A DNA stretch of 64,000 nt from Lachnospiraceae bacterium (GTDB lineage: Bacteria > Bacillota > Clostridia > Lachnospirales > Lachnospiraceae). Of this stretch, positions 1 to 42,899 are shown piece by piece (the first letter of the stretch is position 1; each line of letters opens with the position of its first letter). The notes under the pieces were generated by a model, which worked only from the letters and a program-made list of their open reading frames with translations, searched no databases and had not been told where the DNA came from. The stretch is from contig JAFSYI010000014.1 in assembly GCA_017450065.1 (NCBI GenBank), positions 1 to 64,000 on the forward strand. The letters are read 5' to 3'. The translations under genes were made by a program, and so were the position numbers.

Positions 1-8
1 CACTCCCA

Positions 9-45
9 CAATCCTACCCACCATTCGCAATTCCGTGGTGCTAAG
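9..45 (-). repeat. Intergenic repeat, inverted copy of one at 33862-33922
   Basis: The reverse complement of this stretch reads CTTAGCACCACGGAATTG followed by GCGAATGGTGGGTAGGATTG. The same two blocks occur on the + strand at 33862-33879 and 33903-33922, where 23 bases are inserted between them. It lies upstream of the large surface-protein gene. Function unknown; I read it as a dispersed intergenic repeat, seen here in its more compact form. Confidence 0.7.
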
Positions 46-291
46 CCCCACTTCTTGCTCATGTTGGGGCGGGTCATAAATCCTTGTCCCCACCATCAAG
101 CAAGCTTGTGGTGTTGACAGGCTTTTGACCCTTTAATCATAAAATGTGAAAAACGTGTGAAATATATTACGGAAATGTAAAGAAATCTTTCTTTTTGGCC
201 GATAATATGTTATAGTCGTGTGGCATATGTGTATTTATGTTGCAATTATTATAGATGATGCATGTTGTTTTTTATATAAGGAGGAGAATAA
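46..291. other. Leader region of the LRR surface-protein gene
   Basis: This stretch holds no gene. It contains a GCCCCA/TGGGGC inverted repeat, a hairpin at 91-113 (CACCA, bulged T, CAAGC, AA, GCTTG, TGGTG) and the conserved block at 116-140 described separately. Further on there is an AAAGAAA/TTTCTTT palindrome near 180-195 and TATAGT at 211-216, which could be a -10 box without a clear -35. An AAGGAGGAG ribosome binding site sits just before the GTG start at 292. Confidence 0.4.
116..140 (+). repeat. Conserved upstream block, copy 1
   Basis: A 25-base block beginning GACAGGCTTTTGACCC and ending AATCAT. It recurs with one base changed at 52380-52404, and its core (TTTTGACCC, then A/T-rich, then ATCAT) recurs at 34017-34034. 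All copies have the same orientation as the gene downstream. It may be a regulator site, a promoter element or a repeat fragment; the sequence alone does not decide. Confidence 0.6.
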
Positions 292-23218: not shown

Positions 23219-23237
23219 TCTGCTGAGACTGTCTCCT

Positions 23238-23252
23238 TGTTCTGAATAGTTA
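23238..23252 (-). repeat. Solo arm of the three-hairpin element
   Basis: On the - strand this reads TAACTATTCAGAACA, identical to the left arm of the structured element at 39182-39324. No matching right arm is found nearby. It lies about 20 bases before the - strand glycosyltransferase start, the same orientation relation as the full elements. Confidence 0.55.
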
Positions 23253-33931: not shown

Positions 33932-33970
33932 GTCATAAGGGGTACCGCGAAGCGGTGGATTCCTTATGAC
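33932..33970 (+). repeat. 41-nt hairpin element, copy A
   Basis: GTCATAAGG pairs with CCTTATGAC, and the inner GTACCGC, loop GAA, GCGGTGG forms a second stem. It lies 86 bases before the GT2 start at 34056. The right arm contains ATGACATAA, a two-codon frame. Confidence 0.7.
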
Positions 33971-37558: not shown

Positions 37559-39157
37559 CTAGAACCGTCCGTATATAAAATCGGACGAATTGAATTCAGA
37601 TCCGTAATGTCCCCAACAGATTATCATGATAAAGAGGATAATGAACAGAAGAAGCCTGAAAATGAAATTCTGCTTTCTTATCAATGAACGGACGTGTTCC
37701 ATCTGGGGGCATGGCATACCTTCCGCAGGAGTTAAGACACCGTTGTATTTATGCTCGAGCACCGATACCGTAAGAAGGATAAGCATTGAGAATATGAGTA
37801 TATGGAATTCGGATTCATCGATACCCAGACTGTATAAGGATCTGTCAAAGAATATCCATGGATTAAAGACCGAGAAAGCCGATCTCCACATGGAGAAGCC
37901 GTAGCTTAGGGTATCGGCCCGGAAGAATGACAGTCCGAAGATAAACAGGAAAAAGGTACGTACCCTTTTATACAGGGTATAGCTGAAGCACTGTGTTTTT
38001 ATGTGCAGGACTTCGGTAAGCTTTTTGAAGACTGGTTGACATAACTCAGAAGCGATTATAACCAGTCCCATATATACGCCTACGCCGAATATGTAATTAA
38101 AGCCTCCGCCATGCCACAGGCCGATAAGAAACCATGAGATGAGCAGACCGATGTACTGGGGGAAGTTATACTGCCTGAGCTTTTTGCGCCCAAGCTTTTT
38201 GGTGCAGAACTTCCTGAACCTGCGCATTGCTTCTGTTTCCTGTACGGCATAAAAAACATAGGACTTAAGCCATCCACCGAGTGTTATATGCCATCTTCTC
38301 CAAAACTCCGCAAGGGATTCGGAATAGAAGGGTGTATTAAAGTTCTCGGGAAGAGGGATGTCAAGTATCTGCGAGAAGCCGAGGACAATATCCATAAGCC
38401 CCGAGAAATCCGTGTAGAGCTGGAATGCGAAACAGGCTGCCGCAAAGACGACATACAGGCCCGGATACAGCTCATAGCTGCCATAGATCTCATTTACCAT
38501 TACCGCAAGGCGTTCGGATATGACGAGCTTCTTGAATATACCCCAGAGAACCCTCTGCGCACCAAGGATAAACCTTTCATATGAAAAGTCGTGTTTCCTG
38601 TCCCACAGACTTCCGCTTACCTGCTCATACTGTACTATGGGTCCCGAGGTCATGAGAGGAAAATATGATGCGAACAGCGCAAACTTCCCGGGATTTCTCT
38701 GAAGCTTTATCCTTCCCCAGTAAACATCCGTAAGATATCCCATTACGATAAGTGAGAAATAGGATATCCTGGGAGGACACAGCGCGTCCGAATAATATAT
38801 GACCTTCATGTAGATGCCTTCGTTGATCCGGTGTCCGGACAGCCCCGCTACCCATCTGTATATATCATAGAAAAAGTCTGTATATTTAAGTCCCATCAGC
38901 ATGATCACATCAAAGATGATGACTGCCCTGAACACCCGGGCAGGGTTTCTGCTTTCTTCGGTTATCCTTAAGGAAGCGGCGTAGTTAACAGCAAGGTAAA
39001 CTGCGAAAACCAGGCACTGAAGCGCGGTCGCATTAAAATAATAGAAAACAGCTCCCGCAATGAGCAGCCACAGCCACTGCATTTTTGCCGGAAGCATGAA
39101 ATAAACGATCATTACTATAAGAAAAAATACTGTAAATTCAAGCGAGATAAGTGACAT
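37559..39157 (-). CDS. MBOAT family O-acyltransferase, second copy
   Basis: A 532-residue polytopic membrane protein. 'FWRRWHITLGGWLKSYVF' and 'FLIGLWHGGGFNYIFG' hold the MBOAT signature with the key His. An insertion between these blocks ('QETEAMRRFRKFCTKKLGRK') makes it longer than the first copy. AAAGGAATACC precedes the ATG. The structured element at 39182-39324 ends 24 bases upstream of the start, in the same orientation. It forms a pair with the SGNH gene downstream. Confidence 0.87.
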   Translation of the reverse strand: MSLISLEFTVFFLIVMIVYFMLPAKMQWLWLLIAGAVFYYFNATALQCLVFAVYLAVNYAASLRITEESRNPARVFRAVIIFDVIMLMGLKYTDFFYDIYRWVAGLSGHRINEGIYMKVIYYSDALCPPRISYFSLIVMGYLTDVYWGRIKLQRNPGKFALFASYFPLMTSGPIVQYEQVSGSLWDRKHDFSYERFILGAQRVLWGIFKKLVISERLAVMVNEIYGSYELYPGLYVVFAAACFAFQLYTDFSGLMDIVLGFSQILDIPLPENFNTPFYSESLAEFWRRWHITLGGWLKSYVFYAVQETEAMRRFRKFCTKKLGRKKLRQYNFPQYIGLLISWFLIGLWHGGGFNYIFGVGVYMGLVIIASELCQPVFKKLTEVLHIKTQCFSYTLYKRVRTFFLFIFGLSFFRADTLSYGFSMWRSAFSVFNPWIFFDRSLYSLGIDESEFHILIFSMLILLTVSVLEHKYNGVLTPAEGMPCPQMEHVRSLIRKQNFIFRLLLFIILFIMIICWGHYGSEFNSSDFIYGRF

Positions 39158-39181
39158 GGTATTCCTTTTTTATTGATATTG

Positions 39182-39324
39182 GTAACTATTCAGAACAGGC
39201 TCAAAATACTTCGTATTTTTCGCTGTTTTGGATTCATCCAATACATATATTTGTAAAACATGTCCCTTACATGCGAGCATGACGTGCCATGTTTTAAAAT
39301 ATATGTGCTGTTCTGAATAGTTAC
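39182..39324 (-). ncRNA. Three-hairpin structured element, copy 1
   Basis: Read on the - strand, GTAACTATTCAGAACAG (17 bases) and CTGTTCTGAATAGTTAC close the element as a perfect terminal stem. Inside are a long hairpin (ACATATATTT... with ...AAATATATGT), a middle hairpin (TTGGA/TCCAA) and a 3' hairpin AAAATAC, loop GAA, GTATTTT. The same order, shared unpaired blocks and compensating stem changes occur in 40428-40563. It lies 24 bases before the MBOAT start. It could be a leader RNA or a MITE-like element. Confidence 0.65.
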
Positions 39325-39350
39325 TGATATTGTATTTACGAAACAGAGGC

Positions 39351-40082
39351 TTATCTGCCGGTGATCATACGAAGCAGCTTAAGTGCGTTGTCCGTACGCG
39401 TGCTTGTTGCGGTGATCGTAAACACGGGTTTGCGGCCTGCCGCTATCTGGGTGGCGTACGCTCCGCCGTTTCCGAGTTTTTTGAGATATTCCGAATTATT
39501 TATGTATATACCCGCCGGATATGTTCCGACCGGCTTCTGTGTTCCGTTTTCATCCTCTTCATATTCGGTGGTGTAATAAATACCGAAGCCTTTGTCTTCC
39601 AGTTCTTTTTTGAATTCATCGGTCAGTATGCCGGTAAGATCCATGTGTGCTCCGATGGCTCCGTATTCATCCGCTGTCGGTTCGGGCGCGATGACTACGT
39701 CGAGTTCGCCGGCCGAGTACATGGCAAATACCTTCTGCACGTTGGCCATGGTCATCTGGTCGTAGCTGTTTTCCGTTATTACTATCGAGGAGTCGATCGT
39801 AAGATTATAGGCCTCCGTATCCACTCCGGCGTATTCAATGTAGTCATCTGTGAGAGGATTGTCATATCCGTAGGCCAGATCGGAATTGATGAGTATTGCA
39901 TCGAGGTATACGGGACGTCTGTTCTGCCTGTAATCTTTTATGAAGGTACACAGGAATATGGATGCCGCGATCAGTCCTATTATCGGGAACTTATAGTAAT
40001 CCCAGATATATGAGACCTTCTTCTTGAAGGGCATATCCTTAAGCTTGAGATTCTCTTTTCTGATTTCGTCTTTTATTGCCAT
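39351..40082 (-). CDS. Membrane-anchored protein of unknown function
   Basis: 243 residues I do not recognise. A basic N-terminus ('KDMPFKKKVSYIWDYYKFPI'), one membrane segment (about 34-50), then an external-looking domain. The middle has 'SGELDVVIAPEPTADEYGAI', which recalls solute-binding folds, and 'TRTDNALKLLRMITG' ends it. It has a long leader (about 300 bases) with its own promoter, and lies between two outward-facing copies of the three-hairpin element. Conserved-looking, single-gene unit. Confidence 0.7.
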   Translation of the reverse strand: MAIKDEIRKENLKLKDMPFKKKVSYIWDYYKFPIIGLIAASIFLCTFIKDYRQNRRPVYLDAILINSDLAYGYDNPLTDDYIEYAGVDTEAYNLTIDSSIVITENSYDQMTMANVQKVFAMYSAGELDVVIAPEPTADEYGAIGAHMDLTGILTDEFKKELEDKGFGIYYTTEYEEDENGTQKPVGTYPAGIYINNSEYLKKLGNGGAYATQIAAGRKPVFTITATSTRTDNALKLLRMITGR

Positions 40083-40388
40083 GGCTGCTGATGATCTTAC
40101 TGATTATTATGTTATTATGACTTATTATGACGGGGTTGATCCCCGGTATATTTTTCGGCTCACGGTTCTCGCTTATCGTTTTCCTAAGCTTTCCGGCCGG
40201 ATTATCCATATCGTACGCTACCGGGCTCTATCCGGCATCCATGCCGGGTTTCGCCCTCTCCCCTCCATCCGGTCGGGGAGCAGCTGTCGGTAACGGAAAG
40301 CAAGGAAAGCCTGATAAGCTCGAACAATGTCGCCGGGAAAACATACCGTGGCTCAAACCCTGTTATCCATCCGACCGATAACATACAG
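40083..40388 (-). ncRNA. Long structured leader of the membrane-protein gene
   Basis: No gene is seen here. The region has nested complementarity: GCTTATC (40171-40177) with GATAAGC (40313-40319), inside it GCTTTCC (40188-40194) with GGAAAGC (40304-40310). Within these lie hairpins at 40232-40247 (CCGGCAT/ATGCCGG) and 40258-40280 (CTCCCC/GGGGAG), and outside them CGGGG/CCCCG near 40131-40145. A - strand promoter at 40390-40418 would transcribe all of it into the gene ending at 39351. I could not match it to a known riboswitch. Candidate cis-regulatory RNA. Confidence 0.4.
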
Positions 40389-40389
40389 T

Positions 40390-40418
40390 AGTTTAAAAGA
40401 AATAGCATTTTCTGTCAA
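40390..40418 (-). promoter_or_regulatory. Promoter for the structured leader
   Basis: On the - strand, TTGACA (40418-40413), 17 bases, TAAACT (40395-40390). This predicts a transcript of about 300 untranslated bases before the ATG at 40082. Confidence 0.5.
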
Positions 40419-40427
40419 TGTGTGATA

Positions 40428-40563
40428 CACTACTTAACAGCACATATATTTAATCAGTCTGCTCCTCAAGCTTGCTTGAAAGGAGCCGATTGATTAAATA
40501 TATGTATTGGAAAGTCCAATACATCGAAAGTGCGAAGCACTTGAGATGTGCTGTTAAGTAGTG
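40428..40563 (+). ncRNA. Three-hairpin structured element, copy 2
   Basis: Perfect 18-base terminal arms: CACTACTTAACAGCACAT (40428-40445) and ATGTGCTGTTAAGTAGTG (40546-40563). Inside are a long hairpin (TAATCA, GCTCCT, CAAGC pairing with GCTTG, AGGAGC, TGATTA), TGTATTGGA, loop AAG, TCCAATACA, and AAGTGC, loop GAA, GCACTT. It shares AACAGCACATATATTT and AAATATATGTATTGGA with the - strand element at 39182-39324. Confidence 0.68.
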
Positions 40564-40576
40564 AAGTACATAAGAA

Positions 40577-40673
40577 TAATCAGTCTGCTCCTCAAGCTTG
40601 CTTGAAAGGAGCCGATTGATTAAATATATGTATTGGAAAGTCCAATACATCGAAAGTGCGAAGCACTTGAGAT
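40577..40673 (+). repeat. Three-hairpin element, armless tandem copy
   Basis: 97 bases identical to 40451-40547, that is, the three inner hairpins of the preceding element without the terminal arms. It is followed after two bases by the 41-nt hairpin element, so the two element types are chained here. Confidence 0.85.
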
Positions 40674-40675
40674 TT

Positions 40676-40717
40676 GTCATAAGGAGGGACCCGCAGAGCG
40701 GGAGGATTCCTTATGAC
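40676..40717 (+). repeat. 41-nt hairpin element, copy B
   Basis: GTCATAAGGA pairs with TCCTTATGAC; inside, CCCGC, loop AGA, GCGGG. The right half reads GGGAGGATTCCTT then ATGAC, a ribosome binding site and start codon at ideal spacing, opening an eight-codon frame that stops at TAG. It lies 77 bases before the ATG at 40794. Confidence 0.8.
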
Positions 40718-40793
40718 GGCAAGAGGAAAAGTAAAGTAGCACAACAGAATCGAAAGCATAAACCATATAAATTCACATAAACAGGAGAACCAC

Positions 40794-41294
40794 ATGAACG
40801 AATCATATGTAGAATGCATGGTGGCGAGGAAGAGCTCGCCTATGATGAGCGTACTGAAATATATCATTTATATCCTGACCGGACTGTCGGCCGTGGGCTT
40901 TCTTGCAGGGTACTGGATATTTATAGTCCCTCTGATCATATTCGGACTCCTGGCCTTCTTTGTGGTCCCGGGATTCGATCTGGAATTCGAGTATCTGTAT
41001 GTTGACAGGGAGATCACGATAGATAAGATAATGAGCAAGCAGAAGCGCAAGACTGTCAGGAATCTCGAGCTTTCCAAAATGGAGTATATCTGCCCCATGA
41101 ACTCACATCAGCTCGATCCGTACAAATCAAGGAATCTAAAGATTTCGGATTATTCTTCCAAGAATCCCGATGCAAAGGTATGGGTGATCGTATATAAGGA
41201 AAAGACTGATGAAGAGCTTATCGGAATCGAACCCAACGAAGAGCTTATCAAAGCGATAAAAAGCATATATCCGAGAAAAGTCATTGAGTATTGA
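40794..41294 (+). CDS. Small membrane protein of unknown function
   Basis: 166 residues I do not recognise by name. Two hydrophobic segments (about 20-40 and 44-62), then a cytoplasmic-looking domain with 'LEFEYLYVDREITIDKIMSK' and 'KVWVIVYKEKTDEELIGIEP', reminiscent of membrane-associated PH-like proteins. AACAGGAG precedes the ATG. Its stop codon overlaps the -35 box of the guaB promoter. Confidence 0.75.
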   Translation: MNESYVECMVARKSSPMMSVLKYIIYILTGLSAVGFLAGYWIFIVPLIIFGLLAFFVVPGFDLEFEYLYVDREITIDKIMSKQKRKTVRNLELSKMEYICPMNSHQLDPYKSRNLKISDYSSKNPDAKVWVIVYKEKTDEELIGIEPNEELIKAIKSIYPRKVIEY

Positions 41295-41351: not shown

Positions 41352-42812
<1,461 letters not shown>

Positions 42813-42814
42813 GA

Positions 42815-42850
42815 GCATCCATTATGCGGAGCATAATTCAGGATGGATGC
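42815..42850 (+). terminator. Possible terminator after guaB
   Basis: GCATCC-ATTATGC, loop GGA, GCATAAT-...-GGATGC forms a bulged hairpin three bases after the stop codon. No T-run follows. Confidence 0.35.
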
Positions 42851-42858
42851 GACGAATT

Positions 42859-42899
42859 GTCATAAGGAGGGACCCGTAAACGGGAGGATTCCTTGTGAC
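42859..42899 (+). repeat. 41-nt hairpin element, copy C (supplies a start codon)
   Basis: GTCATAAGG pairs with CCTTGTGAC (one T-G wobble), inner CCCG, loop TAAA, CGGG. Its GGGAGGATTCCTT-GTG forms the ribosome binding site and start codon of the permease gene at 42895. Confidence 0.8.

Follow-up and report, generated by a model that had tools for sequence, protein, structure and literature searches.

A miniature transposon with IS66-type ends and a conserved three-hairpin fold, probably related to the Clostridiales-1 RNA, in a Lachnospiraceae genome

We analyzed a window of 64,000 nucleotides (contig JAFSYI010000014.1, positions 1 to 64,000, assembly GCA_017450065.1) from a Lachnospiraceae bacterium, which contains a non-coding three-hairpin element in two complete copies facing in opposite directions (A and B) and in a third copy (C) with unpaired arms (Table 1). 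We consider it quite probable that copy A is a miniature inverted-repeat transposable element (MITE) whose ends are 17 bp and whose target duplication is 8 bp long, that a transposase of the IS66 family (ISBst12 group) likely mobilised it in trans, that its body has a conserved fold probably homologous to the Rfam family Clostridiales-1 (RF01699), and that copies B and C are older and likely rearranged locally. Mobility is the firm part of this reading and the link to Clostridiales-1 is likely, whereas the mechanism by which the stems are rewritten is one that we infer.

On the plus strand, the order at copy A is TGATATTG, GTAACTATTCAGAACAG ... CTGTTCTGAATAGTTAC, TGATATTG, that is, perfect inverted ends within an 8-bp duplication that had escaped the preliminary description of this DNA. 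The 143 bp of copy A contain no open reading frame (ORF) of at least 60 amino acids. On the minus strand, 17 perfect terminal pairs enclose a long, a middle and a 3' hairpin, the last with a GAA loop (folding energy -53.8 kcal/mol, z -8.7), and the plus strand of copy B has the same arrangement with 18 terminal pairs and, again, a GAA loop in the last hairpin (-73.6 kcal/mol, z -14.0). In neither case did any of the 200 shuffles fold equally low. Thus, the opposite-facing copies noticed previously are borne out, as are the two 16-mer blocks common to them, which are exact. In the relative RUI289 (JAILNV010000252.1; the same genome as G044 of our set, whose locus L336 is contained letter for letter in the RUI289 locus L120), where the aligned pieces of the region are 85-90% identical to the window, the neighbour genes of copy A are present and the element was not found at its site. 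On these sequence features, we confidently read copy A as a transposon insertion of the miniature type.

The element is far more numerous than the window suggests, with dozens of further copies in the same genome (G000, hereafter the own genome) that the preliminary description did not include. The arm motif, with at most one mismatch, has 113 matches in the own genome and the reversed pattern has 0; many solo arms are truncated copies. The covariance-model search suggested in that description was carried out with a model built from 21 copies (R1) and gave matches in 21 of the 37 genomes of the genus, own included, with 64 matches in the own genome, 78 in G035, 33 in G047, 27 in G044 and 22 in G033; a DNA search detected copies in 4 of 30 relatives, too. 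As read from the rows, arm pairs in G035 are spaced by 143, 189, 232 or 279 bp, the longer forms adding a ~46-bp hairpin before the right end, a ~89-bp block after the long hairpin, or both.

Three reverse-strand palindrome matches were removed before the flank, direction, shared-site, loop, wobble, folding and R2 counts given here and below. Among the 134 copies of the family, 17 lie too near contig ends for a comparison of flanks; of the 117 testable copies, 26 have identical 8-bp flanks where ~0.1 would be expected, and 33 (7 of them at 7/8) agree at no fewer than seven of the eight bases, compared to 0.6% of mismatched pairings. Some rows at contig edges have wrongly placed ends, which lowers this rate. 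For the 36 copies with two perfect ends, the flanks are identical in 21 and agree at 7/8 or better in 26. Inverted ends, a duplication of constant length, and a short sequence that lacks a transposase gene and occurs in many copies, the hallmarks of a MITE, are all present. Two points weigh against this interpretation: at copy A, the flanks in RUI289 are too diverged to define a base-exact empty site, and so are those at the site of L280, where G035 has no copy. The comparison of orthologous regions proposed previously demonstrates the absence of copy A from a relative, although not a base-exact empty site. Composite transposons made of arm pairs 5-7 kb apart (L165, L166) were considered and rejected; these arms are end fragments with unmatched flanks. 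Separately, several loci of the own genome (L172, L177, L200) carry variants of a short palindrome, ACCTGTTCWGAACAGGT, which may be either an operator or the smallest remnant of a pair of arms.

The ends GTAACTATTCAG together with the 8-bp duplication point to IS66. ISDge4, a member of the ISBst12 group of this family, is described as having the ends GTGACTACTCAGCA and GTAACTGCTCAGCA and as generating an 8-bp repeat on insertion (PMC12898284), and two IS66 elements of Paracoccus are recorded with 8-bp repeats (PMC3281130). Judging from the sequences of ends and flanks, the element was likely moved in trans by an ISBst12-group transposase, which would bind the terminal stem as inverted repeats, so that the closing helix of the fold would double as the transposon ends. 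Two loci carry candidate relatives of such a mobiliser. The first, L162 (genome G265, from the order-level set), is 1453 bp long; GTAACTATTCAGTAG stands at each of its ends, and the 465-aa ORF that they enclose shows a 41% match to the L145 transposase. The second, L145 (G016, within the genus), has a left end, GTAACTATTCAGAAC, that agrees with the arm at 15 of 17 positions and precedes the first ORF of a pair by 144 bp; the second ORF carries the Pfam domain DDE_Tnp_IS66. The flanks of L162 showed no duplication. Several observations count against this assignment. In L145, the right end is outside the stretch examined and the left end alone is present; and L145 is the sole locus among the 20 IS66 loci of the genus with an end at most three mismatches from the arm. 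In the own genome, a draft that is 88% complete, the search for IS66 domains yielded just a 27-aa remnant of PF03050, that is, no cognate transposase alongside the element, and four further drafts that carry the element (G003, G011, G013, G017) showed no IS66 domain. The genomes being drafts, the mobiliser may have been lost or may be unassembled. The sole IS66 remnant of the own genome resides in L150:834-1818 (G000:C24), a stretch of ~985 bp within a perfect 20-bp inverted repeat, GTAAGCGTCAAACCATGCGC, which probably arose by deletion from another IS66 element.

The structure of the element is conserved across the copies. In the first alignment, 20 of the 46 pairs show double changes with pairing kept, and 97.7% of the cells are paired; none of the 500 shuffles reached either value, and sliding the partner leaves only 3-7 such pairs. 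The loops vary much less than the stems: among 125 distinct copies, the tip of the long hairpin is CTTG in 86, the 3' hairpin has a GNA loop in 110, and the tandem G.A adjoining this hairpin, next to a C-G pair, is kept in 114 and replaced by ordinary pairs in 4. We propose that these loops would be retained since the plus strand folds and is recognised. The conserved structure noted in the preliminary description is borne out by the pairing across the copies. The comparison of the terminal stems of A and B is not clean proof of selection, because inverted ends are complementary by nature and because the stems at some shared sites are rewritten as blocks.

This fold is probably homologous to that of Clostridiales-1. 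At a relaxed threshold, RF01699 matches copy B at 40435-40556 over the whole model with 44.9 bits (E-value 3.4e-8 in 1.7 kb and 8.5e-9 in 421 bases), and copy C together with the following hairpin at 40562-40721 with 35.3 bits. A second covariance model, R2, built from 40 Clostridiales-1 copies with zero A-type copies (those of the family of copy A) among them, recognises 98 of the 134 family copies at E <=0.001, all 98 on the element strand and 0 on the other. Copy B scores best with 46.7 bits, copy C reaches 32.2 bits and L336, the ortholog of B, 35.2 bits; with filters off, copy A scores 24.0 bits on its own strand vs 11.9 bits on the other. In the reverse test, 44 Clostridiales-1 loci searched with the A-type model R1 at E up to 1 contained 12 matching stretches, of which only those in L389 and L390 were strong. 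These two loci of the own genome bridge the two families: they have IS66-type ends, GTAACTATTCAGA, with 8-bp duplications (CATAATCT and GATATATG), and their bodies score 59.1 bits to RF01699, over its gathering cut-off of 48 bits. The loops recur as well, with CTTG and GNA each present in 40 of 58 Clostridiales-1 copies. Weighing against homology, copies A, B and C all remain under the cut-off, and A is not matched by RF01699 at all; at the relaxed threshold, the Rfam model matched only 5 of 26 other family loci (L317, 40.3; L330, 33.9; L286, 33.4; L100, 24.6; and L316, 22.5 bits) and failed to match L336; and, with filters on, R2 missed 36 copies, A among them. RF01699 is widespread in the genus, with matches in 30 of the 37 genomes (27 over the cut-off), including 22 matches in the own genome, and none in 14 control genomes; in the order, it was found in 57 of 295 genomes (42 over the cut-off), where up to 9 matches were scored per genome, a number often reached, so that counts per genome are lower bounds. 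Among the listed hits of open-licence literature searches, we found neither a link between Clostridiales-1 and transposons nor a Lachnospiraceae MITE of a similar kind.

Clostridiales-1 itself occurs inside a second type of MITE. In two genomes of another genus of the family, G313 and G282, all copies examined (7 of 7 in each) extend to the inverted ends TGACGTAAGGGTCAAAAG and TGAGGTAGGTGTCAAAAG, some right ends being close variants of the latter, with duplications of 5-6 bp; in G146, from a third genus, 6 of 7 copies extend, 4 of these with duplications. Overall, 33 of the 81 Clostridiales-1 copies checked could be extended in this manner, and 23 of the 33 have duplications of at least 5 bases, compared to 75 of 1056 mismatched pairings. 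All 33 rows are counted here, including 8 with 5-6 end mismatches, of which 6 have no duplication and are probably spurious. This signal emerged only when the elements were extended to the further right end: at the borders of the model, duplications of at least 7 bases flank 3 of 60 copies (one edge copy, L405, was dropped), with 0.9 of 60 in the control, and two of the three are the bridging loci L389 and L390. Thus, one fold is found inside two MITE types that differ in their ends and duplication lengths. Against the generality of this picture, the remaining 48 of the 81 copies could not be extended and have no duplication at the model borders (they include L389 and L390, whose duplications sit at the IS66-type ends), and therefore many full Clostridiales-1 copies are not recognisable transposons. 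Tentatively, and with somewhat less than even confidence, we suggest that Clostridiales-1 could be a transposable fold carried between unrelated ends, IS66-type with 8-bp duplications and TGA....AGGGTCAAAAG with 5-6-bp duplications, in which the closing helix would become the inverted repeats, and hairpin-templated copying would let the stems rewrite themselves around unchanged loops.

Several copies are common to the same site in different species, and these show how the stems change. In L287/L317 (G047 vs G035; flanks 94-95% identical), 19 of 64 positions differ inside the long hairpin and 0 of 47 outside it, and 16 of the 16 changed paired positions are still paired. In L320/L332 (G035 vs G044; flanks 99% identical), the differences are 24 of 64 inside and 2 of 55 outside, with 16 of 17 changed paired positions still paired. 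Other shared copies are little changed, L338/L346, for example, being 100% identical. Such block changes can be explained by exchange with another copy or by template-directed rewriting, and hardly by point mutation with selection. In 9 genomes searched for the source of the L317 hairpin, no full-length match exceeded 78%, and the sole closer similarity was a 24-base tip at 92-96%; for the L332 hairpin, nothing above 88% was present among the loci compared. The missing L317 donor fits local rewriting and, as a point against it, also a donor absent from the data. Copy B reflects the same kind of event: its right arm, located between the two bodies of the own genome, is the exact 18-bp inverse of the left arm, and is lacking in RUI289. 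Because the long hairpin is rewritten at shared sites with pairing kept, part of the "compensatory" signal probably stems from hairpin-templated copying. We envisage that the stems would be kept complementary largely by such copying, that is, template switching, along with the spread of well-paired copies. Among other shared sites, the copies of L314/L343 are 98% alike compared to 79-85% for their flanks, and those of L286/L314 72% compared to 95-96%, as if shared copies were converted in place. One copy (L286, L314, L343) lies between atpA-like and atpG-like genes, named from the flanks, in three species, and supplies the atpA stop codon.

The same rewriting in place, together with the exact inverse arm of B, is what would be expected if the element were an ordinary MITE with a functionless fold, whose pairing stems from a few palindromic masters and from arm repair by template switching, a process that, according to Monttinen and Loytynoja 2022 (PMC8794818), both generates hairpins and maintains them. 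This is the alternative that survives best, and we regard it as possible, if on balance doubtful. It does not, however, account for the loops and the tandem G.A, which template switching would have no need to protect and which are nevertheless conserved across divergent copies and common to the element and Clostridiales-1, for the recognition of 98 of the 134 copies by R2 on one strand only, or for the same body within two unrelated kinds of ends.

If the fold is functional, it could act as RNA or as single-stranded DNA. In 108 of 125 A-type copies and in all 39 Clostridiales-1 copies (one near-duplicate of the 40 was dropped), RNA folding energies are better for the plus strand than for its complement. 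Among the stem cells of the A-type copies (134 rows reduced to 85 distinct pair strings), there are 72 G.U compared to 19 A.C, with no such excess at unpaired sites, which argues for RNA or for one specific strand; counted by column types, the ratio is 28 to 14 and only marginal (Fisher p 0.05 against unpaired sites). In Clostridiales-1, where 28 consensus pairs were counted and most of the long hairpin was left out, the ratio of 11 to 10 shows no excess. The share of G.U among standard pairs is 2% in the A-type copies and 1% in Clostridiales-1, compared to 9% in 8 tRNAs from the same loci; this scarcity of wobble pairs is easier to reconcile with DNA or with template switching than with ordinary RNA. 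It would be in line with a plus strand that extrudes as a cruciform or hairpin during replication or transposition and is recognised, as folded single-stranded DNA, by a transposase or repair protein. GNA triloops and tandem G.A are unusually stable in DNA, and their prevalence next to the C-G pair and in the 3' hairpin, the same fold within two transposon types and the random direction of the copies (see below) all favour this possibility. CTTG tetraloops are stable in RNA, too, and the CTTG tips of the A-type copies therefore count against a role specific to DNA, as does the excess of G.U over A.C; furthermore, both MITE types have classical inverted ends and duplications, for which no single-strand step is needed. 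We consider folded single-stranded DNA unlikely as the full explanation. Whether as RNA or as single-stranded DNA, the fold more likely serves the element that carries it than regulates the neighbouring genes.

With respect to genes, the direction of the element is random. Omitting 34 of the 134 copies that lie near contig ends, the neighbours of 100 copies comprise tandem genes with 29 copies in sense and 30 in antisense, 25 divergent pairs and 16 convergent pairs. An oriented leader RNA as the general role is rejected on this count. In the window, A and B are indeed each followed by a gene that points the same way, as stated in the preliminary description; this outward arrangement is one draw from a random distribution. 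That description had left the choice between an RNA and a folded mobile DNA; the mobile DNA is upheld by the ends, the 8-bp duplications, the many copies and the absence in relatives, whereas a generally oriented leader RNA is not. It had also set kept pairing, as a sign of function, against random direction and target duplications, as signs of a plain repeat, and both halves apply: the pairing is kept, in favour of structure, yet the direction is random and the duplications are there, contrary to the functional-RNA reading. That the copies are host regulatory RNAs, acting as leaders or small RNAs for their neighbours with the structure maintained by host selection, is improbable, for all that it draws on the placement of A and B, the better folding and G.U excess of the plus strand, the copies held at the same site in different species, the filing of Clostridiales-1 as a small RNA (sRNA) in Rfam (RF01699) and its rating as "probably" RNA by Weinberg et al. 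2010 (PMC2864571), given the random direction, the target duplications around 26 of the 36 copies with two perfect ends, and the rarity of G.U, without excess in Clostridiales-1. In the main text of the latter paper (PMC2864571), Clostridiales-1 is named once, in a table that gives no function, and the word "mobile" is absent from that text.

Copies B and C are, likely, an older insertion that was rearranged locally. In RUI289, the site holds a single body without the right arm, compared to two bodies in the own genome; alternatively, RUI289 lost one body by recombination. The armless third copy reported previously is present and slightly longer than thought, and the solo arm has one mismatch to the motif (Table 1).

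Table 1. Features of the window discussed in the text, with positions on the 64,000-nucleotide stretch
Feature	Position	Strand	Basis
Left target duplication of copy A, TGATATTG	39174..39181	.	Sequence; flank score 8/8
Copy A, 143-bp MITE (as read from sequence), 17-bp perfect inverted ends GTAACTATTCAGAACAG, three internal hairpins	39182..39324	-	Sequence, fold, ORF check
Right target duplication of copy A, TGATATTG	39325..39332	.	Sequence; flank score 8/8
243-aa gene between copies A and B; Pfam: no match	39351..40082	-	Its ortholog retrieved the RUI289 locus
Copy B, a divergent older copy; terminal stem of 18 perfect pairs around three hairpins	40428..40563	+	Fold, RF01699 match
Copy C, repeat of the body of B, arms unpaired, 99% over 100 bases	40577..40676	+	Alignment, RF01699 match
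Additional hairpin module GTCATAAGG..CCTTATGAC following copy C; shared with the long family forms	40676..40717	+	Sequence
Solo terminal arm AACTATTCAGAACAA, one mismatch, probably a fragment	23237..23251	-	Arm motif search
DUF6106 protein gene, 166 aa, downstream of B and C; followed by IMP dehydrogenase gene	40794..41294	+	
Clostridiales-1 RNA of the same architecture class, truncated at the contig end; 86.4 bits to RF01699	1..139	-	

A scan of 39100-40900 detected six promoter-like sites (4.7 in shuffles) and five terminator-like sites (1.3 in shuffles). The terminator-like sites that touch copies correspond to the minus-strand middle hairpins of B and of C, with the tail ATATTTAATC, and a promoter-like match (9/12) lies over the left arm of B. 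Other structured RNAs are present in the window. A TwoAYGGAY RNA (RF01731, 60.6 bits) maps to 40164-40326 (-), between A and B and upstream of the 243-aa gene, and is also kept in RUI289 (54.6 bits). The sequence GTCATAAGG occurs 7 times in the window compared to 0.48 expected, at sites including 42808-42896 (+), 40676-40717 and 33932-33970, and the 3' hairpin of the GA-cis RNA (RF02987) matched at 42808-42896 (+) is almost the same as the one that follows copy C; hairpin modules seem to be common to several Rfam families in the window. Clostridiales-1 matches of equal length and equal score end three contigs of the own genome (window 1-139 (-), G000:C90:1-139 and G000:C67:79638-79776), and this is therefore probably a repeat that breaks the assembly.

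Should the proposed reading be true, a family that Rfam treats as a conserved RNA gene would be largely mobile DNA. Covariation, on which the proof of a functional RNA usually rests, could then come from transposon copying combined with template switching, which would matter for every covariation-based RNA screen. It would also offer a route for the birth of MITEs, where the closing helix of a structured element provides ready-made inverted ends that a transposase may adopt. The pairs of shared sites with rewritten hairpins are a natural test bed for the origin of compensatory changes.

Among known systems, bacterial MITEs and REPINs (e.g. MITEAba12) are likewise short, non-coding, high-copy and intergenic; what sets the element described here apart is that its pairs covary across species, that its loops are conserved and that it is linked to an RNA family in Rfam. 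REPINs also differ from it in their ends and in what mobilises them. With Clostridiales-1, the element shares the terminal stem, the long CTTG hairpin, the middle hairpin and the 3' GNA hairpin, and differs in its shorter middle hairpin and in having IS66-type ends instead of the TGAT..ATCA of Clostridiales-1. With the ISBst12 group, as represented by the description of ISDge4 (PMC12898284), it shares GTAACT..TCAG ends and 8-bp target repeats; unlike the members of this group, the window element is 143 bp long, with no ORF of 60 or more amino acids, and, beyond the ends, comparison by eye with the left end of L145 reveals no evident common sequence. Finally, the multi-base compensatory stem changes that arose together in L287/L317 and L320/L332 resemble those reported in the template-switch study (PMC8794818), which, as described there, dealt with RNA genes and used ancestral reconstruction, whereas here the changes are in a mobile repeat and are seen in pairs of shared sites only.

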